A DNA stretch of 64,000 bases, from positions 6,349,501 to 6,413,500 of the forward strand of contig NZ_CP072827.1 of NCBI RefSeq assembly GCF_017916255.1, read 5' to 3'. A program made the translations under genes and the position numbers. This document shows positions 11,494 to 48,040 of this stretch, one piece after another. The notes below the pieces were generated by a model. It was not told the DNA's origin, made no database searches, and worked only from the letters and a program-made list of their open reading frames with translations. The stretch comes from Streptomyces mobaraensis NBRC 13819 = DSM 40847. Its GTDB lineage: Bacteria > Actinomycetota > Actinomycetes > Streptomycetales > Streptomycetaceae. The number at the start of each line of letters is the position of its first letter. Position 1 is the stretch's first letter.

Positions 11494-11506
11494 AAGCGAA
11501 CCGCCC

Positions 11507-12814: not shown

Positions 12815-12824
12815 GGAGGCCGTC

Positions 12825-16413: not shown

Positions 16414-16454
16414 CCCCGGGTCCTCGACCCGCACCACGGAAACGGAGAACGAGC

Positions 16455-18319: not shown

Positions 18320-19831
<1,512 letters not shown>

Positions 19832-23843: not shown

Positions 23844-23913
23844 GGGCACCTCCGTGAGTTGTCAGGCGGCCCGGGAGGGCCGGACGGGAACGCCTCCGCT
23901 TCCGGACGCCGTC

Positions 23914-32026: not shown

Positions 32027-35000
32027 TCAGTACCGCAGTTCGATGGTCAGGGGGGCCGGGGAGTCCGCGGGCCGGGCGCCCACGGCCCGGTCCAGCGGAT
32101 CGCCGGCGTGATCGAGGAGCGTCCCCGCGATCCGGAGGAAGGCGCGCCCGAGCGCGGCGAGCGCGTCGGCGTCGGCGCGGGCGCGGGGCGCCACGATCTC
32201 GACGTCCAGGGTGTCCGCGCGCTCCGTGACGTCGAACCACAGCGGGGTGTGGGCACCGAAGACCACCTCGGACCGGGGCGCGTCGTCGGCGGCGGTCCGG
32301 GGCCCGAGGGTCGGCGTCCGCGGCTGGAGGGTCAGGCCGACGTCGGCGAGCGGCGCGTCGGCGGCCAGTCCCAGTGCCCGGCCGATGTCCCCCGGCGGGA
32401 CCCACCGGTGGGCGAGCGCGTCGCGGACCGACCGGCGCACGGAGGCCAGCAGAGCGGCGAAGGACGCGTGCGGCTCGACGCGGTCGCGGATGCCGACGGT
32501 GTTGATCAACGGGCCGAGCTGCTCGTCGAGGAGGGGACCGTCCCGCAGCGACACCGGCGACAGCACGACGAGGTCGGTCTGCCCGGTCATGGCGAACAGG
32601 AACGCCTTGACCAGGGCGTGCAGTCCGCCGAACAGCGTCGCGCCGGTGTCCGCGCAGAGCGCCCGCAGCGCGCGGGTGCGGCGGGCGTCCAGGCTCACCC
32701 ACCGGCGGCACCCGAGGAAGTCCCGGGGCCCCGACGGGCGGCCGATCCCGAGCGGCGTGAGATCGGGGCGGGTGTGCTCCGTCCCGGCCAGCCGCTCCGC
32801 CCACCAGGCCAGTCCGGCGCGCCCGGCGGGGCTCTCCAGGTGGGCGAGGTGGTGGGCGGCGACGTCGCGGAACTGACGCGCCGGCGGACGGGGAGCGGCC
32901 CCGCCGTTCCGCCGCGCCCGCTGGTCGCGCCGCCACCACCGGGCGAGGACGTCGCAGGACAGGCCGTCCCACACGATGTGGTGGGCGGTGAGCACGGCGA
33001 GGGTCGTCCCGCCGGGCCGCCGGACCAGGTGGAGCCGGAACAGGGGCCCCTCGGCCAGATCCAGCGGCTCGGCCGCCTCCTCGTGGAGCAGTGCGCGCAG
33101 GTCCCCGGCGGCGGGGGAGCGGGACAGGTCGGTCAGCCGGAGGGCGTCCTCGTGGCCGTGCGGCCGGATCCGCTGCCGGGGGCGGTCGCCGACCAGGGGG
33201 AACCCGGTGCGCAGGATCTCGAAGGACTCGACGAGCCCGGCGAACGCCGCGCGGGCGGCCGCGGGGTCCCACGGCGTGCCGAGGTCCAGGACCTCGGGCA
33301 GCGCCGCGGGCGTCTCCGGGTCCCGGAACTGGTCGAGCAGCCAGAACTCCGACTGCGCGGGCGACAGCGGGTGGTCGTCGGCGTCCGGGACCCGGCGGAT
33401 CGCGGCCGGCGGGCCGGCGGGCCGCCGCGCGGCCGGTGCGCGGCGGGCGTCGATCAGCTCCGCCTGGCGGGCGAGGGTGGGGTACGTCAGCACGTCCTCC
33501 AGCGCGAGGGCCGCGCCCAGCTCCTCCTCGACCCGGGTCACCAGCACCACGGCCAGCAGGGAGTGGCCTCCGAGGGCGAAGAAGTCGTCGTCGGGAGCGG
33601 GGTCGGGGCGTCCCAGCACTTCGCCCCACAGCGCCCGCAGCACGGCCGCCGTACCGGACGCGGAACCGCGCGGGGCCGGTGCGGCGGGGCCGTCCGACCG
33701 GTCCCCCGCCGGGGACCGCGCGAGGCCGGCGGACCGGGCGTGGAGCGCGTCCAGGTCCACTTTGCCGCTGGCCGTGACCGGCCAGTCGGCCACGGTGACG
33801 AACCGGTCGGGGACCATGGCCGGGAGCAGCAGCTCCCGCAGCCGCCGCCGTAGCGCGGGGATCCGCTCCCGGTCGCGGTCGTCGACGTAGGCGACCAGCG
33901 ACGGGGTTCCGGCGGACCCCGTCCGGGCGTCGGTCGCGGCGTCGCCGGTCAGCAGGCCGGTGCCCAGGATCGCGGCGCGGACCTCGTCCAGCTCCACCCG
34001 GTGACCGCGGATCTTCACCTGGCGGTCCCGCCGCCCCGCGAACACCAGGTCACCGGAGGGCAGGCGCCGGGCGAGGTCCCCCGAGCGGTACCGGCGGCGG
34101 GGCGGGAGCCCGTCCGGCGCGTGCGTCCCGAAGACGCGGGCGGTCTCGTCGGGCCGGCCGAGGTAGCCGCGGGCCACGGTGGGCCCGCTGATGACGATCT
34201 CCCCGACGGCGCCGTCGGGGACCGGGCGCCCGTCCGCGTCGAGCAGGTCCACGCTCGTCGTCCCGATCGGGCGGCCGATGTTCTGCGCGTCGGACGGCGG
34301 TCCGGGCGCCTCGGAGGGATCGAGCCGCTTGAAGGTGGTGAAGACGGTGGTCTCGGTGATGCCGTAGCCGTTGACGACGTCCGCCCCCGGTACGTGTCCG
34401 GCGAAGCGCCGGACGGCCCCGGGGCGGATGGGCTCCCCGCCGAGCACCACGTAGCGCAGCCGGTCCGGCGCGCGGCCGGGCCGGCGGTCGAGCTCGTCCA
34501 CCAGCCGCTCGAAGGTGCTCGGGACCTGGGACAGCACGGTCACACCGTGCCGCACGAGGGCCGGGAGCAGCCGGCGCGCGTCCCGGCGGGTGGCCTCGGG
34601 GACGATGACGACCCGGGCACCCCGGGACAACGGGAGGTGGACCTCCCAGACGGAGAAGTCGAACGCGATCGAATGGGTGCACGTCCAGACGTCGTCCTCG
34701 CGGAACTCGAACGGCCAGCCGCCCGCCCACAGCAGCGCGAGGGCGTTCGCGTGCTCCACCACGACGCCCTTGGGCGTGCCGGTGCTGCCGGAGGTGTAGA
34801 TGACGTACGCGGGGTCGTCCGCGCCGCACGCCGGAGGGAGGCCGTCCGCCTTCTCGTCGTCGTCCCGCGCGTCGGGCACCTCGTCCAGGGCGAGTACGGG
34901 AAGCCCCTCCAGCCCCTCGGGGAGCAGGCCGCGGCCGTGGCCGTCGACCACCAGGAGGGCCGGCCGGGAGTCCTCCAGCACGGCCCGGCGGCGCGCCTCG

Positions 35001-38000
35001 GGGTGGGCCGGGTCGATCCCGAGGAAGGCGCCGCCCGCCTTGAGGATCGCGAGCTGGGTGACGGGCACCCGCTCGGTGCGCTCGACCGTGTAGCCGACGA
35101 TCCGCCCGGGCCCCACGCCGAACTCGTCGCGCAGCCGGCGGGCGAGCCGGTCGGCCCTGCGGTCGAGCTCCCCGTAGGTGAGGACCCGGTCCTCGCACAC
35201 CACGGCGGGGCGCCCGGGAGTGAGCCGGGCGTGCCGTTCCACCGCCGTGTGCAGCAGGACCGGTGCCGTGGCGGTCGGCGCGGCGGCGGCCACCGCGGCG
35301 ACGGTGGTGCCGGACGAGTGCGGGAGGGCCGCGATCGTGGTGGACAGGCCGGCGACCCAGCGTTCGACCGTCGTGCTCGCGAAGAGGTGGGAGTCGTACT
35401 CCACCTCGCCGCGCAGCCCGCCCTCGTCCTCCACGAAGGTGACGATCATGTCGAGTTTGCCGACGCCGCGATCGACGTCGACCCGGCGGGCGCGGGGCTC
35501 CCCCCACACTGCCTCCGTCCGGGCCCCGGGCGCGTTCTGCAGGACCAGCATCACGTCGAACAGGGCCGAGCGCCCGGGGTCGCGCACCAGGCCGAGATCC
35601 CGGACGACCAGGTCGAGGGGGTACTCCTCGTGGGCGAACGCGTCCAGGGCGGCCGACCGGACCCCGGCGAGGAGCTCGTCCACCGACGCCTGGGGGTCCA
35701 CGTACGTCCGGAGGGCCACGCTGTTGACGAAGGAGCCGAGGACGTCCTCCAGATCGACGTGCGGCCGGCCGGCCACCGGAGTGCCGACGATCAGGTCGCG
35801 CTGCCCCGTCAGCCCGTGCAGCCACACGCAGACCGCGGTGAGCAGACCCATGAACAGGGTGGCCCGGCGTTCCCCGGCCCACGACCGCAGCGCGCCGGTC
35901 ACCTCGGGGCCGAGCACGAAGCGCCGCACGTCGGCGCCGGGAGCCTTCGCCGCGCCGCGCGGGGCGTCCAGCGGGAGGGCGAGGGCCGGTGGCGGCCCGG
36001 CCAGCCGGTCCGTCCAGAAGCGCCGCAGCCGCCGTCCCGCCGGCCCGGCGAGCCGCGCACGCTCCCAGGCGGCGTAGTCGCGGTACTGGAGGCGGGCGGG
36101 CGGCGGCTCGGCCGGGCCGTCCCCGGTGGCGAGGGCCCGGCACCGCGCCGCCAGCTCGGTGAGCATGAGGGTCAGCGACCAGGTGTCGCTGATCAGGTGG
36201 TGGATCACGAGGTACAGCACGGTTCCCCGGTCCGCCGCCGCCGGGGCGATGAGCCCGAGCCGCAGGAGGGGGCCCGCCTCGGTGTCGAACGGCCGCTCGC
36301 TCACGGTGCGCAGCAGGCGGGACGGGTCGGCCGCCGTGGTGTGCTCCACGGGCACCCAGCCGGGCTCGGGGGGCCGGACGCGCTGCACGAGCTCCCCGTC
36401 CACCAGCGAGAACGTCGTGCGGAGGATCTCGTGCCGGGCGACGAGACCGTCCACCGCCGTGCGCAGGACGCCGGGGTCGGGGACCTCCGTCAACTCGACG
36501 CCGATGGCGATGTTGTACGCCGAGGACGTGGCGTCGAAGCGGCTCGCGATCCAGTGGCGGAGCTGGCTGTGGGACGCCGGGACCGCCGCGGCCGGCGGCG
36601 TGGGCTCCAGGCGGGCGACCCGGCACGCGGCGTGGTCGCAGCCCCGGACCACCTCCGCCTGCGCGCGGATCGTGGGGTGCGCGAAGATCGTGATCACGTC
36701 CAGGCGCCCGCACACCCCCGCCGCCGCGCGCGTGGCCACCCGCGCGGCGTCCAGTGAGGTGGCGCCCCGGGCCAGCACGTCGTCGTCCGGGCCGGGCGCC
36801 GCACCGTCCAGGACGTCGCGCCACAGGGCGGCGAGGACGTCCTCGGCCGATCCCGGCGGGCCGGCGGCCTCGCGCGCCGCCGGGCCGCCCGGAGGCGCCG
36901 GGCGCGCCGTGGGGAGGGCTTCGACGTCGACCTTGTCGTGCGCGGTCCGGGGGAAGGCGTCCAGCACGTGGACGACCTCGGGGACCATGCCGGACGGCAG
37001 GAACGCGCCCGCGTGCGCGCGGAGGGCCTCCGGATCCGGCGGGGCGGACGGCGCCGCGCGGGTCACCCAGGCGGTCAGCCGCCCGCCGCCCGCCTCCGCC
37101 GACGGGCCGCCGCCCACCACGCGGACGACGGCCTCGTCCACGGCGGGATGGCGGCACAGCACGGCCTCGACCTCGGCCGGGGCGACGCGCAGGCCCCGGA
37201 CCGACAGCTCGTCGTCGAGCCGCCCCAGGAACTCCAGGTTCCCGTCGGCGCGCCACCGGACCCGGTCCCCGCTGCGGTAGAGCGGCTCCTGCCCTGCGAC
37301 AGGGCGCCGCACGAAGCGCTCGCCGGTCAGCTCGGCGTCGTTCAGGTAGCCGGCGGCCAGGCAGCGCCCGCGCACGTACAGTTCGCCCGGCACGCCCAGC
37401 GGCGTGAACCGCCCGTGGCGGTCGAGCACGGCGACGCCGACCCCCGGGATCGGACGGCCGACGGGCACGGGCTCGCCGACCGGCCCGGCCGAGCAGTCGA
37501 ACGACGTGACGTCCACGCAGACCTCGGTCGCCCCCCACCCGTTGAGCAGGTGGGCGCCCCCGCGGCGGCCGACGACCTCCTCGAACAGCCCGACCAGCCA
37601 CGGGTGCAGGGTCTCCGCGCCGGCCAGGACCCACCGCAGCGACGAGAGCGCGGGCTGGAGACCGAGCGCGGCCACGTGTTCGAGCAGGCTGCGCAAGGGG
37701 GAGGGCACCAGGTCCACCACGGTGACCCGTTCGCGCTCGATGGCGTCGAGCACCCGCGCCGGGTCGCGTTCGTGGCCGGTGGGCAGGAACCACACGCGGC
37801 CCCCGACCGGCAGCAGCCGGAACATCTCGCAGACGGCGGGGTCGAACGAGAGCGCCGTCCGCCCGAGCGAGACGTCCTCGGGGCCGAGGGCGAGGTGGTC
37901 GATGAGCCACCGCTGACGGTTGACGAACGACCGGTGGCGCACCAGCACACCCTTCGGCTCGCCCCGGGAGCCGGACGTGAACATGAGGTACGCGAGGTCG

Positions 38001-38953
38001 TCGCCGTGCGACCGCGGGAACTCGGGGCGCGCGTCGGCCGGACCGAGGTCCTCCAGGACGACGGCGGGGCGGTCCGCCGGGAGCGCGGCCCGGGCGGCCC
38101 GGGTGGTCACGGCCAGCCGCACCCCGGCCGCCGCCAGCAGCCGGGCCCGCCGGGCCGCGGGCAGCGTGGGGTCGAGCAGGAAGAACGCGCCTCCGGCGGT
38201 GAGCACGCCGAGGGCCGCGGTGAGCGTCGCGCAGGACCGCTCGGCGACGACGGCCACGATCTCCCCCCGCGCGATCCCGCGCGTCAGCAGGGCCCCCGCC
38301 ACGTGCTCGGAGCGCTCCACGAGCTGACGGTAGGTGAGGCGCTCCGCGTCGCAGGCCGCCGCGGTCCGCTCGGGGTGGCGGCCGGCCGCGGCCCGGACGA
38401 GGGCGTGGATCGTCGTCTCCGCCGGGACCCGGGACGGCAGGCCCGTGAGCCACCGCCGCTGGGCGTCGGTCTCGGCGGGGGAGAGCACCGGCAGCGCGGC
38501 GAGGTCCTGCTCGGGGCGGGCGGTACCGGCGGCGAGCACACGGGCGGCCGCCTCCCGGAGAGCGGCACCGGACGCGTGCGGGTGTTCGAGGGCGAGGGTT
38601 GGGGCGGCACCGGGCCGCAGGATGAGCTCGCCCCGGGCCGCGGGCCCGTCCCCCGGGGCACCGGCGTCCGCGACGGCGACGGTCCAGCGGCCCGCGGGCC
38701 GGGGGGCGGGGAGCCGGTTCGCGAGGGCCGAGCGCACGTGGGCGAAGGAGCGCGAGGGGGAGCAGTCCACGGTGACGCCGTGCGCCGCGGTGGTCCCGTC
38801 CGCCGGTTCCACGGTGACGACCAGGTCGAGCCGGTCCCGGTCCACGTACCGCTGGAGGACGATGACGGCGGCCGCGAGGACGTCGTGGACGGAGTGGTGG
38901 CCGCCGTCGCCGCCCTCGGCCCGGGGCGGAGCCCCGGTGTGCACCGGGCTCAT
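32027..38953 (-). CDS. Nonribosomal peptide synthetase: half-C - A - PCP - C - A - PCP - C
   Basis: A 2308-residue protein whose ATG overlaps the aminomutase stop (ATGA). Residues 1-160 are a condensation-domain remnant. A1 (about 200-700) has TSGSRGEPKG near 325, pocket start FDPAVCEMF, and NGWGATE. PCP1 is atypical (GATSLDA near 728). C1 has HHLISDT near 918 (Gly of HHxxxDG replaced by Thr). A2 (about 1250-1720) has TSGSTGTPKG near 1388 and a pocket read by eye as beginning Asp-Phe-Trp with VNGYGITETT, close to threonine-type codes but with Gly where Thr codes usually have Met. PCP2: LGGHS near 1793. C2: HHIVWDG near 1993. No TE. I infer a basic beta-amino acid for A1 and valine or 3-hydroxyvaline for A2, passed to the NRPS at 25676. 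Confidence 0.94.
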   Translation of the reverse strand: MSPVHTGAPPRAEGGDGGHHSVHDVLAAAVIVLQRYVDRDRLDLVVTVEPADGTTAAHGVTVDCSPSRSFAHVRSALANRLPAPRPAGRWTVAVADAGAPGDGPAARGELILRPGAAPTLALEHPHASGAALREAAARVLAAGTARPEQDLAALPVLSPAETDAQRRWLTGLPSRVPAETTIHALVRAAAGRHPERTAAACDAERLTYRQLVERSEHVAGALLTRGIARGEIVAVVAERSCATLTAALGVLTAGGAFFLLDPTLPAARRARLLAAAGVRLAVTTRAARAALPADRPAVVLEDLGPADARPEFPRSHGDDLAYLMFTSGSRGEPKGVLVRHRSFVNRQRWLIDHLALGPEDVSLGRTALSFDPAVCEMFRLLPVGGRVWFLPTGHERDPARVLDAIERERVTVVDLVPSPLRSLLEHVAALGLQPALSSLRWVLAGAETLHPWLVGLFEEVVGRRGGAHLLNGWGATEVCVDVTSFDCSAGPVGEPVPVGRPIPGVGVAVLDRHGRFTPLGVPGELYVRGRCLAAGYLNDAELTGERFVRRPVAGQEPLYRSGDRVRWRADGNLEFLGRLDDELSVRGLRVAPAEVEAVLCRHPAVDEAVVRVVGGGPSAEAGGGRLTAWVTRAAPSAPPDPEALRAHAGAFLPSGMVPEVVHVLDAFPRTAHDKVDVEALPTARPAPPGGPAAREAAGPPGSAEDVLAALWRDVLDGAAPGPDDDVLARGATSLDAARVATRAAAGVCGRLDVITIFAHPTIRAQAEVVRGCDHAACRVARLEPTPPAAAVPASHSQLRHWIASRFDATSSAYNIAIGVELTEVPDPGVLRTAVDGLVARHEILRTTFSLVDGELVQRVRPPEPGWVPVEHTTAADPSRLLRTVSERPFDTEAGPLLRLGLIAPAAADRGTVLYLVIHHLISDTWSLTLMLTELAARCRALATGDGPAEPPPARLQYRDYAAWERARLAGPAGRRLRRFWTDRLAGPPPALALPLDAPRGAAKAPGADVRRFVLGPEVTGALRSWAGERRATLFMGLLTAVCVWLHGLTGQRDLIVGTPVAGRPHVDLEDVLGSFVNSVALRTYVDPQASVDELLAGVRSAALDAFAHEEYPLDLVVRDLGLVRDPGRSALFDVMLVLQNAPGARTEAVWGEPRARRVDVDRGVGKLDMIVTFVEDEGGLRGEVEYDSHLFASTTVERWVAGLSTTIAALPHSSGTTVAAVAAAAPTATAPVLLHTAVERHARLTPGRPAVVCEDRVLTYGELDRRADRLARRLRDEFGVGPGRIVGYTVERTERVPVTQLAILKAGGAFLGIDPAHPEARRRAVLEDSRPALLVVDGHGRGLLPEGLEGLPVLALDEVPDARDDDEKADGLPPACGADDPAYVIYTSGSTGTPKGVVVEHANALALLWAGGWPFEFREDDVWTCTHSIAFDFSVWEVHLPLSRGARVVIVPEATRRDARRLLPALVRHGVTVLSQVPSTFERLVDELDRRPGRAPDRLRYVVLGGEPIRPGAVRRFAGHVPGADVVNGYGITETTVFTTFKRLDPSEAPGPPSDAQNIGRPIGTTSVDLLDADGRPVPDGAVGEIVISGPTVARGYLGRPDETARVFGTHAPDGLPPRRRYRSGDLARRLPSGDLVFAGRRDRQVKIRGHRVELDEVRAAILGTGLLTGDAATDARTGSAGTPSLVAYVDDRDRERIPALRRRLRELLLPAMVPDRFVTVADWPVTASGKVDLDALHARSAGLARSPAGDRSDGPAAPAPRGSASGTAAVLRALWGEVLGRPDPAPDDDFFALGGHSLLAVVLVTRVEEELGAALALEDVLTYPTLARQAELIDARRAPAARRPAGPPAAIRRVPDADDHPLSPAQSEFWLLDQFRDPETPAALPEVLDLGTPWDPAAARAAFAGLVESFEILRTGFPLVGDRPRQRIRPHGHEDALRLTDLSRSPAAGDLRALLHEEAAEPLDLAEGPLFRLHLVRRPGGTTLAVLTAHHIVWDGLSCDVLARWWRRDQRARRNGGAAPRPPARQFRDVAAHHLAHLESPAGRAGLAWWAERLAGTEHTRPDLTPLGIGRPSGPRDFLGCRRWVSLDARRTRALRALCADTGATLFGGLHALVKAFLFAMTGQTDLVVLSPVSLRDGPLLDEQLGPLINTVGIRDRVEPHASFAALLASVRRSVRDALAHRWVPPGDIGRALGLAADAPLADVGLTLQPRTPTLGPRTAADDAPRSEVVFGAHTPLWFDVTERADTLDVEIVAPRARADADALAALGRAFLRIAGTLLDHAGDPLDRAVGARPADSPAPLTIELRY

Positions 38954-40215
38954 GCGCCGCCGCCCCCTTCCGGGCCCGCCGGCGACCGCGGTGCGGAGAG
39001 CATGTCGGACACGGTGCGCACGTCGGAGGGCGGGAGCGGGGCGGACGGCTCGGGCAGCCGCAGCGGCGGCGTCGTGCCGGACCGGTACCCGGCCGGCCCT
39101 TGGTACTCGGACACCTCGCCCGCCCAGTTGCGCAGGACCGCCCGTTCCGGCGACAGGCTGAGCAGGTAGTTCGGAGCGACCGGGATCTTCCCGCCGCCAC
39201 CGGGGCTGTCGATCACATAGGTCGGGACCGCGTAGCCGCTGATGTGCCCCCGCAGGCCCTCGATGATCTCGATGCCCTTGGTGACGCTCGTCCTGAAGTG
39301 GCCCGCGCCCCGCACGGAGTCGCACTGGTACAGGTAGTAGGGGCGCACGCGGATCCGCACGAGCTCGGTGCACAGCCGGCGCTGCACCTCGACGCTGTCG
39401 TTGATCCCCGCGAGGAGGACCGCCTGCGCGCCGATGGGGGCGCCGGTGCGGGCGAGGCGGGAGCAGGCCGCGGCGAGTTCCGGGGTGATCTCGTACGGAT
39501 GGTTCACATGGATGTTCACCCACATCGGGTGATTCGCCTCGATGATGTCGCACAATTCGTCGTCCACGACGAACGGATTGAAGACCGGGGCGCGCGTGCC
39601 GAGCCTGATGATTTCGACATGCGGGATCTCCCGGATTTCCGCGACGATCTCGGCCAGCCGTTTGCGCGCCATCGACAGGGGATCGCCACCGCTGATGAGG
39701 ACGTCACGCACCCGCGGCGACTCCCGGATGTACCGGATCTGCTCCCGCCAGTCCGTTCGGCTGTAATTCTGCTGCCCGTCCCCGACGAATCGGCTCCGCG
39801 TACAGTACCGGCAATACGACGTGCAGGAACTGGTGACGAGCATGACGAGCCGGTCGGGGTACTTGTGGATGATTCCGCGCACCGGCTCGTGCTCGACCTC
39901 CGAATTGGCGTCGGGCAGCCATCCGTCGAAGGCCTCCATCTCCCGCGAGGTGGGAACGACCTGGCGCCGCAGCGGGCACCGCGGGTCGTCCCCGTCGATG
40001 AGGCTGAGGAAGTACGGGGTGATGTCCACCCGGAACAGGTCGTCCGAGCCGAGGGCGCTCTCCTCCTCCTCGGTGAGCTTGATCACCTCGCGCAGCTGCG
40101 AGGCGCGGCGCAGCCGGTGGGTCATCTGCCAGCGCGGGTCGGTCCACTCGGCCTCGGGGACGTCCGCCCATCGGGGATGACGGGCACCCGATTCACTCCG
40201 CACACCGCTTGGCAT
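38950..40215 (-). CDS. Lysine 2,3-aminomutase-type radical SAM enzyme
   Basis: A 421-residue protein with CTSYCRYC (CxxxCxxC), SGGDPL, and the PLP-lysine loop SPGGGGK. The two Asp residues that in lysine 2,3-aminomutase bind the side-chain ammonium (Asp293 and Asp330 of the clostridial enzyme, as I recall) are kept, in QCDSVRG and VIDSPGGGG. This favours a terminal-amine substrate such as lysine or homolysine over glutamate. Reaction: 2-amino to 3-amino shift, giving a beta-amino acid. ATG 40215 follows GGAGG by 6 nt. First gene of the leftward operon and coupled to the NRPS, fitting delivery of a beta-amino acid to A1. Confidence 0.92.
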   Translation of the reverse strand: MPSGVRSESGARHPRWADVPEAEWTDPRWQMTHRLRRASQLREVIKLTEEEESALGSDDLFRVDITPYFLSLIDGDDPRCPLRRQVVPTSREMEAFDGWLPDANSEVEHEPVRGIIHKYPDRLVMLVTSSCTSYCRYCTRSRFVGDGQQNYSRTDWREQIRYIRESPRVRDVLISGGDPLSMARKRLAEIVAEIREIPHVEIIRLGTRAPVFNPFVVDDELCDIIEANHPMWVNIHVNHPYEITPELAAACSRLARTGAPIGAQAVLLAGINDSVEVQRRLCTELVRIRVRPYYLYQCDSVRGAGHFRTSVTKGIEIIEGLRGHISGYAVPTYVIDSPGGGGKIPVAPNYLLSLSPERAVLRNWAGEVSEYQGPAGYRSGTTPPLRLPEPSAPLPPSDVRTVSDMLSAPRSPAGPEGGGGA

Positions 40216-40504
40216 CTGCAACCTCCGGCTTGATCCGGGCGAACCGAGTTTCCACCATAGGCACATTCCCGACGGCTGTTCAAGTAATACTGAATTGCCC
40301 TTCAGGTGCTGTGCACGGCATTTTTAAGGTCCTTTTTCAGGTGCTTTTTAGAACGTTTTTAGAGTCGCCGCCCGATGGCTTCCGGGCTCTCTGGCGCGCC
40401 GGGGGACGGCTCTGGTACACCATTTCGGTGCGTCGAATTTGTTCGTTCCGGTCGGGCCGATCGCGGCCGGACCGTCCGGCCGGCCTGGAATCAGGGGTGG
40501 AGCG
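40216..40504. promoter_or_regulatory. Divergent promoter region of the NRPS cluster
   Basis: The only gap between the leftward and rightward operons, and strikingly AT-rich in the 40260-40370 part. It holds an inverted repeat CTGAA-N6-TTCAG (40290-40305), the 10-mer TTCAGGTGCT twice (40301-40310 and 40336-40345), and four T-rich heptamers (separate entry). TATTAC on the minus strand (40285-40290) is a possible -10 for the aminomutase operon. All structural genes of the cluster can be transcribed from here. Confidence 0.75.
40321..40362 (+). promoter_or_regulatory. Four phased T5 heptamers, candidate SARP operator
   Basis: TTTTTAA, TTTTTCA, TTTTTAG and TTTTTAG start at 40321, 40333, 40345 and 40356, i.e. 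12, 12 and 11 bp apart, leaving 4-5 bp spacers. Heptameric direct repeats on one helix face are the known binding pattern of SARP activators. The phased T-tracts would also bend DNA. Assignment to the SARP at 20553 is inference. Confidence 0.6.
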
Positions 40505-41740
40505 GTGACTGGGACTACCGGGAAAGTGTTCACCTGGAATCCACGGCCGGGGGGCCTCGACCGCGTGGGAATCGAGGACGACAGCCTGCGGGACGGGTTG
40601 CAGGGCGCCTTCGTGCGCCACCCCGCGCTCGACGAGAAGAAGGCGCTCCTGGAGTCCTCCGCGGCGATCGGGGTCCAGGCCGCCATGCTCGGGTTCCCCT
40701 CCGCCTCGCCGGGCGCCCGGGCCGAGGCGGGCCGCCTCGTCGAGCACCTGGATCGCCGGGGCGTCCCGCTCGTCCCGCGCTTCCTGGCGCTGGCCGACCC
40801 GGCGAGCATCGCCCCGATCACCGAGCTCGACCGCGGCAGCGACCGGGACGTGTGGGCCGACTTCTTCGTCGGGTGCAGCCCGCTGCGGCGGCGCGTCGAG
40901 GGCTGGACCCTCGACAGCGTCCTCGACCGCATCACATCGGCCGGGGCGGCGGCCCGCGAGGCCGGCACGCGGTTCGGCGTCAGCCTGGAGGACGCCACCC
41001 GCACGCCGCCCGAGGAACTCGCCCGGATGGTCGACGCGGCGGTCGGGGTGGGGGCGGAGGTGCTCACCGTCTGCGACACGGTGGGGGAGTCGACACCCGA
41101 GGGCGCCGCGCGCGTCGTGCGGGCGGTGCGCGAGGCCGCGCGCGGCGCGGCGGCCGGCCGCGGCCCGGAACCGGAGATCTGGTGGCACGGCCACGACGAC
41201 CGCGGATTCGCGCTGGCGAATGCCATCGCCGCCGCCGAGGCCGGGGCGGACACCATCAGCGGCGCGTTCCTCGGCCTGGGGGAGCGGGCCGGGAACACCG
41301 CGCTCGAACTGGTCGTGATGTACCTCTACCAGGCCGGACACCCGGGCTACCGGCCGGACCGGGTGCTCGGCCACTGCCGCCGGCTCGCGGAGGCGACGGG
41401 CATGCCGGTGCGGCCGAACGCCCCCCTGATCGGCGATCAGGCGTTCGCCACGTGCACGGGGACCCATGTCGCGGCGCTGGTCAAGGCGCGCCGCTGGGGA
41501 CGTGAGACGGAGGACCTGGTCTTCTCCAGCGTGCCCGCCGCCGCGCTCGGACGCACTCAGACGATCATGGTCGGCCCGACGAGCGGACGGGCCGCCGCCC
41601 GCGAGGCCCTCGCCTCGATCGGCGCCCCGGCCGACGAGGACACCGTGGAAGCGGTCCTGGCGCGCGCCCGGTCCCGGGACCGGTGGCTCCCGCCGTCGGA
41701 GATCCGCGCACTGCTCGGGACCGGAGGTGCGCCGGCATGA
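40505..41740 (+). CDS. LeuA/homocitrate-synthase-type condensing enzyme (DRE-TIM family)
   Basis: A 411-residue TIM-barrel protein. EDDSLRDGLQ near the N-terminus carries the metal Asp and catalytic Arg, and WHGHDDRGFALANA carries the paired metal His. It should condense acetyl-CoA with a 2-keto acid, the first step of one-carbon chain elongation. At 411 residues it lacks the C-terminal regulatory domain of housekeeping 2-isopropylmalate synthase (over 500), so it should escape leucine feedback. GTG 40505 is preceded by GGTGGAG. It is coupled by ATGA to the dehydratase subunit. Proposed substrate: a guanidino- or amino-alkyl 2-keto acid. Confidence 0.88.
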   Translation: MTGTTGKVFTWNPRPGGLDRVGIEDDSLRDGLQGAFVRHPALDEKKALLESSAAIGVQAAMLGFPSASPGARAEAGRLVEHLDRRGVPLVPRFLALADPASIAPITELDRGSDRDVWADFFVGCSPLRRRVEGWTLDSVLDRITSAGAAAREAGTRFGVSLEDATRTPPEELARMVDAAVGVGAEVLTVCDTVGESTPEGAARVVRAVREAARGAAAGRGPEPEIWWHGHDDRGFALANAIAAAEAGADTISGAFLGLGERAGNTALELVVMYLYQAGHPGYRPDRVLGHCRRLAEATGMPVRPNAPLIGDQAFATCTGTHVAALVKARRWGRETEDLVFSSVPAAALGRTQTIMVGPTSGRAAAREALASIGAPADEDTVEAVLARARSRDRWLPPSEIRALLGTGGAPA

Positions 41741-43005
41741 TCCCGCAGAGCATGACCAGCAAGATCCTCGCCCGGGCGGCGGGCCGGGACCACGTGGTCG
41801 CCGGGGAGATCGTCGAGATCGCGATCGACATGGCGTTCACCCACGACCCCGTCTGCGAGGGCCTCCGCCGAGAGTTCCACGACGCGTTCGGTCCGGACGC
41901 CACCGTCTGGGATCCCGACCGGATCGCCCTCTTCGAGGACCACCTCGTGCCGGCCAAGGACGCCGAGTCGCGGCGGCTCGCCGCGAGCATGGCGCGGTTC
42001 GCCGCCGAGCAGGGCATCACCCACCACTACCCGTACGGCGAGAACTACGGCATCTGCCACGTGATGATGTGCGAGGAGGGGTTCGTCCAGCCCGGGACGG
42101 TGGTCCTCGGCACGGACTCCCACTCGGTGACCTACGGGGCGTTCAACGCCTTCGGCTCCGGCGTCGGCATGATCGACATGGTGAACGCCTTCTACACGGG
42201 CGACTTGTGGTTCCGGGTCCCGGAGACCGTCGAGGTCCGGATCGAGGGTGTCCTCCCCCCGGGTGTGCTGGCGAAGGACGTGATCCTGACCCTCATCGGC
42301 GACCTCGGCCTGGGCGGCGCCTCCGGCCGGTCGATCGAGTTCTCCGGCTCCACGGTCGACGCGATGTCGGTCGAGGAGCGCATGACGCTGTGCAACATGG
42401 TCGTGGAGGCCGGGGCGGTCAACGGGATCATGAGCCTCTCGGCCGCCGCCGCGGACTACCTGGCCACCAGGCCGCGCACCACCGCCTACCAGCCGGTGAC
42501 CGGCGACCCCGGAGCGCCGGTCGCGCGGCGCCTGGAATACCGCGCCGAGCGCCTGCGCCCCGCCGTCGCCTACCCGCACCGACCGGACAACGTGCGCTCC
42601 ATCGACGAGGCGATGGCCGACCGCATCCGGGTGGACCAGGTCTACATCGGGTCCTGCACCGGTGCGAAGTACGACGACATCGAGGTGGCCGCCGCCGAGC
42701 TGGCCGGCCGGCGCGTGGCGCCGGGGGTCCGCCTCATGATCGTGCCGGCCACCATGGGGATCTACCGCCGGCTGATCCTGTCCGGCGTCATGAGCACGCT
42801 GCTCGCCGCCGGGGCCGTGATCGAGTCGCCCGGCTGCAAGGCGTGCTACGGCGCGCACGGCGGCGTCGTCGGGGACGGCGAGGTGTGCCTGTCCACGACC
42901 AACCGCAACTTCCGCGGGCGCATGGGGAACCCCAAGTCGTCCGTCTACCTGGCATCGCCGGTCATCGCCGCGCGCAGCGCGCTCGCCGGCCTGATCACGG
43001 AGTAG
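41737..43005 (+). CDS. LeuC/homoaconitase-type dehydratase large subunit
   Basis: A 422-residue aconitase-family protein with LGTDSHSVTYGA and the three iron-sulfur Cys in GSCTGAKYDD and PGCKACYG. Together with the small subunit at 45158 it would isomerise the 2-alkylmalate made by the preceding enzyme to the 3-alkylmalate through dehydration and rehydration. The large and small subunits are separate, as in leucine biosynthesis, but the small-subunit gene is placed two genes downstream. Confidence 0.93.
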   Translation: MIPQSMTSKILARAAGRDHVVAGEIVEIAIDMAFTHDPVCEGLRREFHDAFGPDATVWDPDRIALFEDHLVPAKDAESRRLAASMARFAAEQGITHHYPYGENYGICHVMMCEEGFVQPGTVVLGTDSHSVTYGAFNAFGSGVGMIDMVNAFYTGDLWFRVPETVEVRIEGVLPPGVLAKDVILTLIGDLGLGGASGRSIEFSGSTVDAMSVEERMTLCNMVVEAGAVNGIMSLSAAAADYLATRPRTTAYQPVTGDPGAPVARRLEYRAERLRPAVAYPHRPDNVRSIDEAMADRIRVDQVYIGSCTGAKYDDIEVAAAELAGRRVAPGVRLMIVPATMGIYRRLILSGVMSTLLAAGAVIESPGCKACYGAHGGVVGDGEVCLSTTNRNFRGRMGNPKSSVYLASPVIAARSALAGLITE

Positions 43006-43008
43006 CCG

Positions 43009-44094
43009 GTGACGCCGACCACACCACCGACGGTGCTCGTCCTCCCCGGCGAGGGGATCGGACCGGAAGTCGTACGCGTCGGACGCGCCGTCCTCGAACA
43101 CGTCCTCGACCGGGCCGGGTTGCCCGCCACCATCAGCGAACACGCCGTGGGCCGCCCGGCGTACGAGCGCACCGGGCAGTGGCTGCCCGACCCCGTGCGG
43201 GACGCGCTCGACCAGGCCGCGGCGGAACCGCGCGGCGCCGTCCTCTTCGGCGCGACGGCGGACGAGCCGATCGGCGAACTCCGCAGCCGCTACGACCTGT
43301 ACGCCAACCTCCGCCCGGCCCGCCCGCTGCCGGCCCTGCACGCCGTCTCACCCCTCCGGCCCGAGCGCCTGGAAGGCGTGGACGTGCTGATCGTGCGGGA
43401 ACTGGTGTCGGACGTGTACTACGGGCGCCGCAGGACGGGCACCGACGCGGGGCGGCGGTGGGCCGGACAGGAGATGTACTACCGGGAGGACGAGGTCCGC
43501 CGCATCGTGCGCTGCGGCCTCGGGCACGCCGAGGCCCGGCGCCGCCACCTCACCCTGGTGCACAAGGCCAACGCCATCCCCGACGTCTTCGGGCTGTGGC
43601 TGGACGTCCTCGCCGAGGAGCGCGCGGCCTACCCGCACGTCGAGGTCCAGGACAGGTACGCCGACACCATGGCGATGGAACTCGTCCTGCGGCCGGCGGA
43701 CTTCGACGTCATCGTGACCGGAAACCTGTTCGGCGACCTGCTCTCCGAGATCACCGGCGCGGTGCTGGGATCGCTGGGACTGATGCCCTCGGCGTCCCTG
43801 AGCCCCACCGGGTTCGCGCTGTACGAGCCGGTCGGCGGCACGGCCCCCGACATCGCCGGCACGGGACGCGCCAACCCGCTCGGGACGATCGGCTCCGTCG
43901 AGCTGATGCTGCGGCACACCTTCGGCGCCCCCCGATGGGCCGACCGCCTGGCCGCCGCCGTCGCCCTGGCGGTCGGGCTGTGGCGCACCCCCGACATCGC
44001 CGGCCCGGGGGACAAAACGTGCACCACCGAGGAGATGGGCGCCGCGGTGTGCGACGCGTTCGACGCAGTGGCGACGGAGGAGGCGACGGAGTGA
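43009..44094 (+). CDS. LeuB/homoisocitrate-type beta-decarboxylating dehydrogenase
   Basis: A 361-residue protein with LPGEGIGPEV at the N-terminus, VRELVSDVYYG (substrate-recognition region), HKANAIP, the metal-binding VTGNLFGDLLSE, and EPVGGTAPDIAG for NAD. Expected reaction: oxidation and decarboxylation of the 3-alkylmalate to a 2-keto acid one carbon longer. Leu-type enzymes carry a leucine-side-chain pocket in the VRELV/T segment; the sequence DVYYG instead fits an altered substrate. Starts with GTG three bases after the previous stop. Confidence 0.93.
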   Translation: MTPTTPPTVLVLPGEGIGPEVVRVGRAVLEHVLDRAGLPATISEHAVGRPAYERTGQWLPDPVRDALDQAAAEPRGAVLFGATADEPIGELRSRYDLYANLRPARPLPALHAVSPLRPERLEGVDVLIVRELVSDVYYGRRRTGTDAGRRWAGQEMYYREDEVRRIVRCGLGHAEARRRHLTLVHKANAIPDVFGLWLDVLAEERAAYPHVEVQDRYADTMAMELVLRPADFDVIVTGNLFGDLLSEITGAVLGSLGLMPSASLSPTGFALYEPVGGTAPDIAGTGRANPLGTIGSVELMLRHTFGAPRWADRLAAAVALAVGLWRTPDIAGPGDKTCTTEEMGAAVCDAFDAVATEEATE

Positions 44095-45161
44095 TGACCC
44101 CACCCACACCCGGCGGACCGGGCGGGACCCCCGACGACGCCCCGCGGGACTACGACGACGCGGTCCACCGGGCCGGCTACCGCGGGGTGTTCGGCCCCGC
44201 GACCTCGTTCCTCGGACTGCCCCGGTGCGACCAGGGTCCCACCGGGTACGCGGGCGCCGACGTGGTGATCCTCGGCGCGCCCTTCGACGGCACCACGTCC
44301 CACCGGCCGGGGGCGCGCTTCGGGCCCCAGGCCATCCGGCGGGCCGACTACCTGCCCCACGTCCCCTACCGCCCCCACCTCGGGCTCGGCATCGATCCGT
44401 TCGGCGAGCTGACCGTCGTGGACGCGGGGGACGTGCCCACCCCTCCCGGCGAGACGGAGCAGGCCCACGCGCTCCTGGAGCGCGCGGTGGGGGACGTCGT
44501 GGCCGCGGGCGCCGTTCCCTTCACCCTGGGCGGAGACCACAGCGTCGCCTGGCCCGCGATGCGGGGCATCGCCGGCCGACGCGGCGCCGGGACGTTCTCG
44601 GTCATCCACTTCGACGCCCACGCCGACATCGGCGACACCAGCGACTTCGGAACGAAGTACGGACACGGCACCGTGATGCGCCGGGTGCTGGAGGCGGGCA
44701 TCGTGCCGGGAGACCGGTTCGTGCAGATCGGACTGCGCGGCTACTGGCCCGGACCGCGCACGCTCGCGTGGGCGTCCGAGCTGGGGGTCCGTTCGGTCAC
44801 GATGCACGAGCTGCGCTCCCGGGGCCTCGACGCCTGCCTGGCCGCGGTCCTCGCGCAACTCGGCGACGGACCCGTCTATTTGACGATCGATATCGATGTG
44901 GTCGATCCGGGCATGGCCCCGGGGACGGGGACACCCGAACCGGGCGGGCTGACCAGCCGCGAACTCCTCGACGCCGTGCGGACCTGCGCCCAGCGCACGG
45001 ACCTCGTCGGGGCGGAGGTCGTCGAGGTCTCGCCCCCCTACGACGGGCCGGGCGAGATCACCGCCTTCCTGGCCAACCGCGTCGTGCTGGAGGTGCTGTC
45101 GGGCATGGCGTGGCGACGCCGCGCCGCGTCGCAGGCCGGGAACGGAGGAGCACCCTCATGA
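44094..45161 (+). CDS. Ureohydrolase (agmatinase/arginase family)
   Basis: A 355-residue protein with all Mn ligands in place: GGDHSVAW (His), HFDAHADIGD (Asp-His-Asp) and TIDIDVVDP (two Asp), then the agmatinase-like APGTGTPEPGG. The family hydrolyses guanidino compounds to urea plus an amine. It is embedded between the LeuB- and LeuD-like genes and overlaps both, so it belongs to the same pathway. I infer removal of a guanidino group from a chain-extended arginine homologue to give a terminal amine, matching an aminomutase that prefers terminal-amine substrates. The ATG is fused to the preceding TGA; a GTG one codon earlier is possible. Confidence 0.92.
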   Translation: MTPPTPGGPGGTPDDAPRDYDDAVHRAGYRGVFGPATSFLGLPRCDQGPTGYAGADVVILGAPFDGTTSHRPGARFGPQAIRRADYLPHVPYRPHLGLGIDPFGELTVVDAGDVPTPPGETEQAHALLERAVGDVVAAGAVPFTLGGDHSVAWPAMRGIAGRRGAGTFSVIHFDAHADIGDTSDFGTKYGHGTVMRRVLEAGIVPGDRFVQIGLRGYWPGPRTLAWASELGVRSVTMHELRSRGLDACLAAVLAQLGDGPVYLTIDIDVVDPGMAPGTGTPEPGGLTSRELLDAVRTCAQRTDLVGAEVVEVSPPYDGPGEITAFLANRVVLEVLSGMAWRRRAASQAGNGGAPS

Positions 45162-45682
45162 TGCTCAGCGGCCTCGCCTACGGGGTGGGGGACTTCGTGG
45201 ACACCGACGTGATGAGCCCCGGCCGCTTCGAGCCCTACGAGGGGCCGGAGCAGCTCGCCCGGATCGCGCTGATCGACTACCCGGCCGCCACCCCGTTCGT
45301 CGATCCGGCGACGGGCCGCTCACCGTACACGGTCATCTTCGCCGGGACGGAGTTCGGCTGCGGTTCGAGCCGGGAGACCGCGCCGCAGGCCCTGCACCAC
45401 GCCGGGGCCCGCGTGGTCGTCGCCAAGTCCTTCGGCAACATCTTCTTCCGGAACTGCGTCAACATGGGCCTGTTGTTCCCCGTCGTCGCCGACCACGGCC
45501 TGGACGAGTCCGTCACCGGCCGGCCCGTCACCGTGGACCTCACCCACCGGGTGGTGACCTGCGCCGGCCGCCGGATCGAATTCGCCGACCTCGGGCCCCT
45601 CCAGGGCATCGTCGACGTCGGCGGCCTCACTCCCTACACCCTCGCCCGCGTCCGGTCGGGACAGAAAAGGTGTGACCGATGA
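45158..45682 (+). CDS. LeuD-type dehydratase small subunit
   Basis: A 174-residue swivelling domain with DTDVMSPGRF and FGCGSSRETAPQAL, the hallmark of LeuD, plus SFGNIFFRNCVNMGLL. It pairs with the large subunit at 41737. Both ends overlap neighbours by ATGA, so it is translated together with the ureohydrolase and the CmlA-type enzyme. Confidence 0.93.
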   Translation: MMLSGLAYGVGDFVDTDVMSPGRFEPYEGPEQLARIALIDYPAATPFVDPATGRSPYTVIFAGTEFGCGSSRETAPQALHHAGARVVVAKSFGNIFFRNCVNMGLLFPVVADHGLDESVTGRPVTVDLTHRVVTCAGRRIEFADLGPLQGIVDVGGLTPYTLARVRSGQKRCDR

Positions 45683-47289
45683 GTGCGCCCCACCCGTCCC
45701 CGCGACTCGTCTCGCTGCGTCCCGACGTCGTGGCCGAGCCCCTGATCGACCGCTGGTACGCGTGGTCGCACCTGCTCTCACCGGCCACGGCGGCGCGCAA
45801 CATCGCCCGCCGTCACCTGCCCATCATGACCTCCTACCTGAAGGCACCGGCGGTGCACCGGCGGTCGGCCCGGACACCGGCCCTGGCCGGCGGCCCGTTC
45901 ATGGACCTGGACGGAGACCGCTCGGCGGACGTCGAGGAACTGATCGGGACCACCCGGCGCCGCGCCGCGCGGCTGCTCGCACTCGACGCCGCGGTGGACG
46001 CCCTGCAGGACCTGCTGGCCGACGCCGACCCCCGCATGCCGCTCGAACAGCTCTACCCCCAGGTCCCGGAACCACTCAAGGGCTACGTGGAACTCGTCTA
46101 CGACCTGCGAGGCAACGCCTCCTTCCGGCTGATCGAGGCCCTGCTGTACCGCAGCGACTACGCCGCGCCCGACGGGCAGTCCCTCGCCCTGTCACCCCTG
46201 CGGGCGGACCGCCGCCCCTTCGTCCTGTCCACCCCCCGCCTCGACGCCGACGACCGGACCGTACTGCCCGTCGCCTTCGACCACCCCGGCCTCGACGTCA
46301 TGTTCTCGACGACGCGCTCACCCAGGCCGTTCGGCGAGATCGCGGAGGCCCTGGAGCTCGGCCCCGACACGGCGGCGGCACTCGCACCGTTCTTCACCCC
46401 GGCCGATGCCTCCGCGGCGGCCCCGCCCCGGGAGCCCGTCGGGGCGCCGCGCCTCCGCTACCTCGGCCACGCCTGCGTCCTGGCCGAGAACGCCCACGGC
46501 TGCCTCCTGGTGGACCCGCTGCTCCCACCGGAGTTCCCGGGCGCCGGCCCCCGCCTGGCCGACGGCGACCTGCCCGACCGCATCGACCACGTCCTGATCA
46601 CCCACGGACACCAGGACCACTTGGTGCTGGAGACACTCCTGCGCCTGCGCCACCGGATCGGGACGATCGTCGTCCCCCGCTCGGACGCGGGGTCGCTGCA
46701 GGACCCGTCGCCGCGCCTGGCGCTGGAGGCGGCGGGCTTCCCCCGGGTGATCGAGCTCGGGGAACTCCAGGAGACCGAGACGCCGGTGGGCCGGATCACG
46801 GCCGTGCCCTTCTTCGGCGAGCACGGCGATCTCGCCATCTCGGCGAAGACGGCGTGGCTGCTGGAGGCCGGGGGCCGGACCGTGCTCTTCGCCGCGGACA
46901 CCGCCACGGTCGATCCCGACGCCTACGCGCACGTCCGGCGGGCCGTCGGCCGGGTGGACGTGCTCTTCCTGGGCATGGAGTGCGAGGGCGCCCCGCTGAC
47001 CTGGCTCTACGGCCCCCTCTTCACCCCCGAGCCCGACCGCGAGGTCGCCGCGCGCCGGCGCCTGAACGGCAACGACGACCGCGGCGCGGCGGCCCTCGCC
47101 GAGGCGATGGGGTGCGGTCGGGCGTACGTGTACGCCATGGGCCACGAGCCGTGGGTGTGGTACCTGACGACGACGACCTTCGACGAGGCCGCGGTCCCGG
47201 TGCGGGCGGCCGAGCGGTTCGTGGCGGCCTGCCGGGCCCGGGGGATCGAGGCGCGGCGCCTGCACGGTTCGTGCGACCTGCCGTGGTGA
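45679..47289 (+). CDS. CmlA-type di-iron beta-hydroxylase, second paralogue
   Basis: A 536-residue protein, almost the length of CmlA (532). The metallo-beta-lactamase-fold ligands His309, His311, Asp313 and His314 (HGHQDH), Glu381 (FFGEHGDL) and Asp407 (FAADTATVD) all lie exactly four residues after the CmlA ligands I recall (305, 307, 309, 310, 377, 403). The helical N-terminal domain, which contacts the NRPS in CmlA, is present. Predicted to beta-hydroxylate an amino acid held on an NRPS carrier with O2. Since the paralogue at 29611 sits with the aromatic module, this one may act on valine to give 3-hydroxyvaline, or the roles may be reversed. Confidence 0.9.
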   Translation: MSAPHPSPRLVSLRPDVVAEPLIDRWYAWSHLLSPATAARNIARRHLPIMTSYLKAPAVHRRSARTPALAGGPFMDLDGDRSADVEELIGTTRRRAARLLALDAAVDALQDLLADADPRMPLEQLYPQVPEPLKGYVELVYDLRGNASFRLIEALLYRSDYAAPDGQSLALSPLRADRRPFVLSTPRLDADDRTVLPVAFDHPGLDVMFSTTRSPRPFGEIAEALELGPDTAAALAPFFTPADASAAAPPREPVGAPRLRYLGHACVLAENAHGCLLVDPLLPPEFPGAGPRLADGDLPDRIDHVLITHGHQDHLVLETLLRLRHRIGTIVVPRSDAGSLQDPSPRLALEAAGFPRVIELGELQETETPVGRITAVPFFGEHGDLAISAKTAWLLEAGGRTVLFAADTATVDPDAYAHVRRAVGRVDVLFLGMECEGAPLTWLYGPLFTPEPDREVAARRRLNGNDDRGAAALAEAMGCGRAYVYAMGHEPWVWYLTTTTFDEAAVPVRAAERFVAACRARGIEARRLHGSCDLPW

Positions 47290-47365: not shown

Positions 47366-48040
47366 GTGACCCCTCCCGACCCGCCCTCGACGGCCGAGCG
47401 GCTCATCCGCGGCCGGCGCGCGGTCCGCGCCTACCGGCCCGATCCCGTACCGGACACGGTGATCACCGCGATCTTCGACCTGGCCGCCGCCGCGCCGTCG
47501 AACGGCAACACCCAGCCCTGGTCGGTCGACGTCGTCAGCGCCGGGGCCCGCGAACGGCTCGGCGAGGCGCTGGTACGGGCCGCCGAGGAGGGGAAGCAGA
47601 CCCCCGACTTCCCGGTGCGCCCGTACACGGGCGTGGCCGCGGAGCGCTGCGCCGCGGCCGGAGCGCTCATGTACGGAGCGCTGGGGGTCGCGCGCGGCGA
47701 CCATGCCGGCCGGCGCCGGGCGTTCCTCGCGGGACTGCGCTTCTACGGAGCGCCGCACGTCGCGCTGCTGTCGCTCCCCGCCGACGCGGACGAACGCATG
47801 GCGGCCGACCTCGGCATCTACGCGCAGACCCTCATGCTCGCCATGACGGCCTACGGCGTCGCCAGCTGTCCGCAGGGAGTGCTCGGACTCTTCGCCGACG
47901 CGGTGCGCTCCGTCCTCGGCCCGACGACGGACAAGCTGTTGTTCGGCGTCTCGTTCGGCTACGCCGAACCGAAGGCGATGAGGGCGATGCCGGTGGTTCC
48001 CCGGGTACCGCTGGCGGAGACGACGCGCTTTCATCGGTGA
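47366..48040 (+). CDS. Nitroreductase-family FMN oxidoreductase
   Basis: A 224-residue protein with RGRRAVRAYRPDPVP (FMN-phosphate Arg cluster), APSNGNTQPW and a C-terminal FGVSFGYAE. The GTG start follows GAAAGGAGC. The family includes nitro and ring reductases but also flavin oxidases that introduce C=C bonds, such as the cyclodipeptide oxidase AlbA. As the last gene of the rightward operon in a cluster whose suspected product has a dehydroamino acid, alpha,beta-desaturation is a possible role, inferred only. Confidence 0.9.
   Translation: MTPPDPPSTAERLIRGRRAVRAYRPDPVPDTVITAIFDLAAAAPSNGNTQPWSVDVVSAGARERLGEALVRAAEEGKQTPDFPVRPYTGVAAERCAAAGALMYGALGVARGDHAGRRRAFLAGLRFYGAPHVALLSLPADADERMAADLGIYAQTLMLAMTAYGVASCPQGVLGLFADAVRSVLGPTTDKLLFGVSFGYAEPKAMRAMPVVPRVPLAETTRFHR

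Follow-up and report, generated by a model that had tools for sequence, protein, structure and literature searches.

Removal of a guanidine to unmask an amine is known from the biosynthesis of the polyketide desertomycin, in which an amidinohydrolase releases a guanidino-protected amine that had been masked to avoid cyclisation of the starter, as shown by gene deletion and an in vitro assay (PMC4737276). In that family a ureohydrolase-superfamily enzyme, shown for desertomycin (DstH) and proposed for primycin (PriH), unmasks an arginine-derived guanidine that had blocked cyclisation; its carrier is a polyketide assembled from a 4-guanidinobutanoyl starter, and the removal is the last step (PMC4737276). 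A different precedent is the HphA-type homologation of phenylalanine and tyrosine, where a dedicated LeuA-like gatekeeper serves the supply of a homologated amino acid for a nonribosomal peptide synthetase (NRPS) product (PMC12961565). Here we describe a locus of Streptomyces mobaraensis NBRC 13819 (DSM 40847) in which a ureohydrolase gene is built into a leuACBD-like operon, read divergently from a lysine 2,3-aminomutase-like gene (kamA). The window, i.e. the whole stretch of DNA that was analysed, comprises 64,000 nucleotides (positions 6349501-6413500) of a genome consisting of one contig of 7.57 Mb (GCF_017916255.1, NZ_CP072827.1). As far as we know, no ureohydrolase takes part in the HphA-type pathway. 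We give somewhat better than an even chance to the reading that the cassette makes 3,7-diaminoheptanoate from arginine by masked elongation, for the N-terminus of a resormycin-type tripeptide; at the sequence level its support consists of the gene set, the coupling of the genes, their conservation, their active-site residues and group-specific changes in the substrate pockets.

A three-module NRPS cluster spans 21427-48040 of the window, and leuA-leuC-leuB-ureohydrolase-leuD (40505-45682) lie within it as five complete genes of one coupled operon. An earlier, sequence-only reading of this DNA had proposed this gene set, and the examination of open reading frames and domains bore out both its composition and its coordinates. 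The same reading had the genes overlapping end to end; overlaps of 4 nt were indeed found at leuA/leuC, leuB/ureohydrolase and ureohydrolase/leuD, but leuC and leuB do not overlap and are separated by a 3-nt gap. The operon extends beyond leuD into a CmlA-like gene, which again overlaps by 4 nt, and then a nitroreductase-like gene. On the divergent side follow kamA, a two-module NRPS, an aromatic hydroxylase, a second CmlA-like gene, a one-module NRPS, a halogenase-like gene, an aminotransferase and an MFS exporter. All 15 genes between and including those for the nitroreductase and the MFS exporter recur in identical order in another genome of the genus (G063), with 73-91% identity (kamA 82%, leuA 79%, leuC 91%, leuB 83%, ureohydrolase 85%, leuD 82%). 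Since the order is identical and the five operon genes are 79-91% identical, the gene arrangement is more than chance. The host genome holds two further aconitase-family genes outside the cassette and two distant LeuA matches (33% and 39%), and the cassette is therefore unlikely to be the leucine pathway.

The ureohydrolase, described as complete from the outset, carries all of the metal-binding motifs of its family (GGDH, DAHxD and DxDxxDPxxxPGTGTP, read here as GGDH, DAHAD and DIDVVDPGMAPGTGTPEPGG). Its top matches in the Protein Data Bank (PDB) are a guanidinobutyrase, proclavaminate amidinohydrolase (1gq6, second best) and a guanidinopropionase, with agmatinases and arginases ranking below. 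Proclavaminate amidinohydrolase takes the amidino group off an intermediate of clavulanate biosynthesis that derives from arginine; no chain elongation is involved there, and its loop after DAHxD is without the extra Asp of the cassette enzyme. This loop was surveyed in the best 120 of 7902 relatives over threshold, the window's own protein included. An 11-residue loop with the motif [SN]DFG, containing the extra Asp, was found in all eight sequences that belong to or are tied to such cassettes (P0080-P0086 and P0089) and in none of the 112 others listed, 110 of which have 10 residues, one nine (P0103) and one 11 without the motif (P0097). Five of the eight are tied to a LeuA through the window or through contigs of the same size (see below), and P0082-P0084 were included by their 84-85% identity. 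The 10-residue spacing from DAHxD to GHG that marks the ordinary actinobacterial agmatinase-annotated group is absent from the cassette enzyme. In the alignment the cassette loop coincides with loop A of arginase, which holds ligands of the substrate alpha-carboxylate and helps to select arginine versus agmatine, and whose shortening converted arginase into an agmatinase (PMC9224512). Because the loop with the extra residue corresponds to arginase loop A, the cassette ureohydrolase has probably been adapted to a guanidino amino acid of an unusual kind. A tree of 51 of 123 sequences split 40 ordinary ones from the cassette sequences together with P0086 and P0089 (support 100/99); a single clade of the eight depends on the position of the root, and P0089 and three outgroup sequences have long branches. 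A second ureohydrolase, without the [SN]DFG motif, is encoded in the host genome at 2714272. The initial view of the enzyme as a part of the elongation set was strengthened by its conservation in G063, its ties to LeuA and its own loop signature, which mark it as a conserved and specialised member. A chance neighbour or a housekeeping agmatinase was also considered, and was judged unlikely in view of how the gene is conserved, of its loop signature and of the other ureohydrolase copy in the genome.

The aminomutase is encoded on the minus strand, divergently from the operon as had been noted before, and its database copy (P0200) has 421 residues, which places the start at 40215. It aligns to lysine 2,3-aminomutase (LAM; PDB 2a5h) at E 3e-122 and shares with it the cluster-binding CxxxCxxC, the pyridoxal phosphate Lys, and D293 and D330, the two amine-binding Asp residues. 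It scores above the cut-off of the KamA family (TIGR00238) and below that of the curated LAM equivalog model (451.9 bits, cut-off 525.4); with the arginine 2,3-aminomutase model TIGR04468 it reaches 379 bits against a cut-off of 600, and Asp330 is kept. Unlike 2a5h, the cassette mutase has Ser at LAM positions 294 and 331, immediately after both Asp. Among the best 120 of 7994 relatives, the enzyme itself included, this pair occurs in the ten nearest (five from Streptomyces, and P0205-P0209) and in none of the 110 others, which show Leu (109) or Met (1) at one site and Ala (109) or Gly (1) at the other. Arginine 2,3-aminomutases above the TIGR04468 cut-off were found in 9 of 295 genomes; all nine lack the second Asp, owing to a two-residue deletion at that place, and have Asn at 294. 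The cassette mutase thus looks like a lysine-type enzyme whose amine end has been remodelled, a change that a C7 diamino acid might call for. That the distal end bears an amine rather than a guanidine at the mutase step, as previously suggested, agrees with the lysine-type mutase and with the retention of D330, lost in 9/9 arginine-type enzymes. As the aminomutase is lysine-like and not arginine-like, removal of urea probably precedes its action. G063 also encodes an arginine 2,3-aminomutase above the cut-off (C1:430139-431188, L114), about 105 kb from its cassette.

The substrate pocket of LeuA was mapped by alignment and with the help of the table in PMC12961565, and consists of Arg85/Asp112/Gly151/Ser153/Thr181/Ser245. 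This combination fits no homocitrate, isopropylmalate or HphA pattern. Homocitrate synthases (HCS) are among the best matches of LeuA, and their carboxylate-binding His/Arg pair is replaced by Arg85 and Gly151 in the alignment; the Leu/Glu/Asn specificity residues and the C-terminal regulatory domain of 2-isopropylmalate synthase (IPMS) are both absent. Compared with HphA, four of the five listed specificity positions differ, and Ser242 is common to both (PMC12961565). The pocket does not single out one keto acid as substrate, and would be compatible with that of lysine or with others.

The adenylation (A) domain codes were read from motifs, by position rules and with the final Lys placed by eye: A1 is DPCDLGGVDK, A2 DFWSVGGVFK and A3 DGLTIAGVNK, and G063 shows one change. 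The first thiolation (T) domain was likewise recognised by eye from an atypical motif. The A3 code is aromatic-like. That of A1 is cationic; its positions 278 and 331 are acidic, as has been reported for Arg-activating domains and as a Lys/Orn code likewise shows (PMC12283262), and the A1 code matches the Arg-activating cluster of that report at 7 of 10 positions. The predicted product is a cationic-aliphatic-aromatic tripeptide, and the cluster includes a halogenase, an aromatic hydroxylase and two beta-hydroxylases. This resembles resormycin of S. platensis, which we take to be composed of homo-beta-lysine, a valine derivative and a chlorinated dihydroxyphenyl dehydroalanine. All gene types expected from that presumed structure are present, namely a three-module NRPS, a halogenase, an aromatic hydroxylase, beta-oxidation enzymes and a supply of homo-beta-lysine. 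Because a LeuA of 80% identity comes from S. platensis, the reported resormycin producer (PMC10525753), the product was assigned as a resormycin-type chlorinated dehydro-tripeptide.

In the pathway that we propose, we infer all of the substrates, how often the cycle runs and in which order the steps follow. Arginine would be deaminated to 2-oxo-5-guanidinopentanoate, to which LeuA would add acetyl-CoA; isomerisation by LeuCD and oxidative decarboxylation by LeuB would complete one cycle, and two cycles would lead to 2-oxo-7-guanidinoheptanoate. Re-amination would give 2-amino-7-guanidinoheptanoate, the cluster's aminotransferase being a candidate both for this step and for the formation of the keto acid. 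The ureohydrolase would then take off the guanidine as urea to yield homolysine, and the KamA-like enzyme would shift the 2-amino group to C3, forming 3,7-diaminoheptanoate (homo-beta-lysine) for activation by NRPS module 1 as the N-terminal residue. Throughout the elongation the guanidine would mask the terminal amine, leaving the keto acids unable to form a cyclic imine.

Several observations weigh against this proposal. Keto-arginine can itself cyclise to some extent. The ureohydrolase scores above the NCBIfam agmatinase cut-off (195 vs 174 bits) and its closest named relatives carry an agmatinase annotation; Arg85 of LeuA occupies a specificity position (His in HCS, Leu in IPMS) where it would be odd beside a guanidinium, though it is paired with Asp112. 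The A1 code matches the Lys/Orn code DMEDVGSVDK nearly as well as the arginine one (6/10; PMC12283262). The contig ties described below are based on equal contig sizes, and connect only four of the ten KamA sequences (P0200, P0202, P0204 and P0206) to a LeuA. Finally, the absence of an amidinotransferase, to which the sequence-only reading had appealed in favouring arginine over guanidinylated lysine, holds within the window but not in the genome, where an amidinotransferase-like protein is encoded at 7536008 and a 38% relative of it at 516900. These two homologues, and the fact that a single elongation cycle would then suffice, are what recommends a start from homoarginine, i.e. lysine guanidinylated by an amidinotransferase encoded outside the cluster, elongated once and then unmasked. 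We regard this as highly unlikely: the stronger homologue belongs to a row of genes on one strand near the chromosome end that also includes MFS, ATP-grasp-like, TruD-like and GMC oxidoreductase genes (10006-17680 of L131), and G063, with the full cassette, shows no match to it. The single PF02274 protein of G063 is matched over 377/377 positions, as are two further PF02274 proteins of the host; the latter end in MSCPVER, an arginine deiminase motif, and look like arginine deiminases. Since G063 carries the cassette without a detectable amidinotransferase, the guanidine more likely comes from arginine, provided that the cassette works in G063 and unless an amidinotransferase of another family is encoded there; to this extent the preference for arginine was sustained.

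The guanidine could alternatively be retained to the end, the KamA-like enzyme and the NRPS using guanidino forms and the ureohydrolase acting on the finished peptide, much as DstH does in the case of desertomycin. Desertomycin provides a precedent for such late unmasking (PMC4737276), and the resemblance of A1 to Arg-activating domains also speaks for it; we nevertheless consider it unlikely, as the KamA-like enzyme retains both Asp residues of lysine-type mutases, in contrast to all nine arginine 2,3-aminomutases, A1 also agrees with the Lys/Orn code, and the ureohydrolase gene is coupled between leuB and leuD. Distinctly unlikely, in our view, is a direct one-cycle elongation of the keto acid of lysine by LeuACBD, with the ureohydrolase serving some secondary purpose, for instance the provision of arginine or agmatine. 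Asp112 of the LeuA pocket could bind an ammonium group and the agmatinase annotation of the ureohydrolase relatives would suit that role, but the gene lies inside the operon, is co-conserved and has its own loop signature, which the separate genomic ureohydrolase does not share. An AksA-like route, by which 2-oxoglutarate would be lengthened to a dicarboxylic keto acid and then reduced and aminated, is hinted at by the HCS among the best LeuA matches; it appears hardly credible, since Arg85/Gly151/Thr181/Ser245 replace the His/Arg/Ser/His of HCS, no side-chain carboxylate reductase was evident among the cluster genes scanned, and the ureohydrolase would be left unexplained.

The distribution of the cassette was followed through LeuA. 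At E 1e-40 a LeuA-like match was found in 12 of 392 genomes of the genus, the window's own included, and G063 contained the only close one (~80%); a ureohydrolase is present at both close loci. The other ten Streptomyces loci (33-43% LeuA identity) showed no homologue of the ureohydrolase in the 20 kb that were read, in which leuB and leuC were found at nine of them. Two further matches only (35-38% identity) were obtained from 396 genomes of the phylum at the same threshold, and at E 1e-80 a set of 296 relatives yielded the window and G063 alone. In a protein search, 79 LeuA relatives were listed at E 1e-20. Those of 80-82% identity come from S. platensis (P0011, 25 sequences; 80%) and S. nigrescens (P0004), the S. 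glebosus ureohydrolase (P0082) is 85% identical, and all relatives that bear a name and share 79-86% identity with cluster proteins belong to Streptomyces or Streptoverticillium. LeuA relatives at 46-60% identity derive mostly from sources labelled lgn, jgi and ena, which are taken to be metagenome assemblies. Two genes were considered tied when their source contigs have equal size, a shared contig being inferred from the size and not from its DNA. This test recovered close relatives of the cluster, both for LeuA/ureohydrolase (P0002/P0081, 79888; P0012/P0085, 15331) and for LeuA/KamA (P0003/P0202, 8381923; P0008/P0204, 80794). It also tied the distant LeuA P0013 to ureohydrolase P0086 (20506), P0017 to ureohydrolase P0089 (21429; KamA P0205, at 21439, is near but unequal) and P0015 to KamA P0206 (306199). 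The evidence for LeuA-ureohydrolase and LeuA-KamA ties beyond Streptomyces is strong but indirect. Quick trees of LeuA and KamA grouped the Streptomyces sequences (support 100) and the ten KamA sequences (99), with long-branch warnings. We give little better than an even chance to the wider proposition, that a LeuABCD-type route acts twice on a guanidino keto acid protected by arginine's own guanidine, that its product passes to a dedicated amidinohydrolase and on to a homolysine 2,3-aminomutase, and that LeuA, ureohydrolase and KamA form a transferable module extending beyond Streptomyces.

Approached from the ureohydrolase, 80 loci kept out of 295 relatives showed no leuA, leuB, leuC, leuD or kamA homologue in the fetched flanks (tblastn, E 1e-15), some of these loci being short and genomes near that of the window possibly absent from the set. 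A LeuA-like family of 33-45% identity is present in 107 of 297 genomes of the phylum of the acidobacterial group (E 1e-60); the flanks read at eight such loci (L146-L153) contained no ureohydrolase, kamA, leuC or leuD, and a leuB homologue at one. Nine Streptomyces sets (L100-L108) combine leuA, leuC, leuB and aminotransferase homologues without a ureohydrolase, seven of them with an NRPS match within 20 kb, and were read as other amino acid homologation cassettes. At L099 (G252) a 43% LeuA relative adjoins an NRPS, and homologues of leuB, leuC and leuD are absent from the 20 kb read.

The use of urea removal as a deprotection step had been put forward as undescribed. This stands only for amino acid elongation; masking and unmasking as such are already published for desertomycin (PMC4737276). 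Compared with DstH and PriH, the carrier would here be a free keto or amino acid undergoing LeuABCD-type elongation, and the removal is probably early. Among the entries listed by literature searches, with subscription journals mostly outside them, there was no resormycin pathway, no arginine chain elongation and no masking within LeuABCD-type elongation, and the new element appears to be guanidine masking inside such an elongation. A 2024 title in Toxicon reportedly concerns a homoarginine biosynthetic gene in the microcystin pathway. If the proposed pathway is correct, it would carry the protecting-group chemistry of nature beyond polyketide starters into the elongation of amino acids, explain how homolysine is formed in cells despite the cyclisation of lysine's keto acid, and provide an enzyme set for C7 diamino acids; the loop Asp of the ureohydrolase and the Ser-Ser pair of the mutase would serve as searchable markers for related clusters.

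Table 1. Genes of the conserved cluster, with coordinates in the window.
Feature	Coordinates	Strand	Remarks
KamA/lysine 2,3-aminomutase-like radical SAM protein, proposed homolysine 2,3-aminomutase	38950..40266	-	likely start 40215
leuA: LeuA/HCS-like Claisen-condensing synthase	40505..41740	+	only HMGL-like domain found
leuC: LeuC/HacA-like aconitase large subunit	41737..43005	+	PRK00402 490 bits vs cut-off 385
leuB: LeuB-like beta-decarboxylating dehydrogenase	43009..44094	+	PF00180 6e-88
Ureohydrolase, proposed amidinohydrolase for elongated guanidino amino acid	44091..45161	+	PF00491 5e-91
leuD: LeuD/HacB-like small subunit	45158..45682	+	TIGR02087 97 bits, below cut-off 109
CmlA-like diiron beta-hydroxylase	45679..47289	+	PF18456 9e-75; overlaps leuD by 4 nt
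Nitroreductase-family protein	47366..48040	+	PF00881; conserved operon end in G063
NRPS A1-T-C-A2-T-C	32027..38953	-	Pfam: two A, two C, one T
Biopterin-dependent aromatic amino acid hydroxylase	31242..31976	-	PF00351 2e-30
Second CmlA-like diiron beta-hydroxylase	29611..31245	-	PF18456 4e-67
NRPS A3-T-C	25676..29614	-	code DGLTIAGVNK
FAD-dependent halogenase-like protein	23914..25695	-	PF01494 and PF04820, both above cut-offs
Class I/II aminotransferase	22689..23849	-	PF00155 6e-32; conserved in G063
MFS exporter, left edge of conserved cluster	21427..22689	-	

Other gene groups were observed to the left of the cluster. Positions 8757-19831 of the window encode a radical SAM protein with a weak B12-binding match, two methyltransferases, two MocA-like oxidoreductases, a beta-lactamase-fold protein and a POT-family transporter, and are perhaps a second natural product cluster. 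An open reading frame of 1843 residues at the left edge (50-5581) appeared polyketide synthase-like by eye, and is followed by one of 930 residues (5661-8453) that, also by eye, resembles an ATP-binding regulator.

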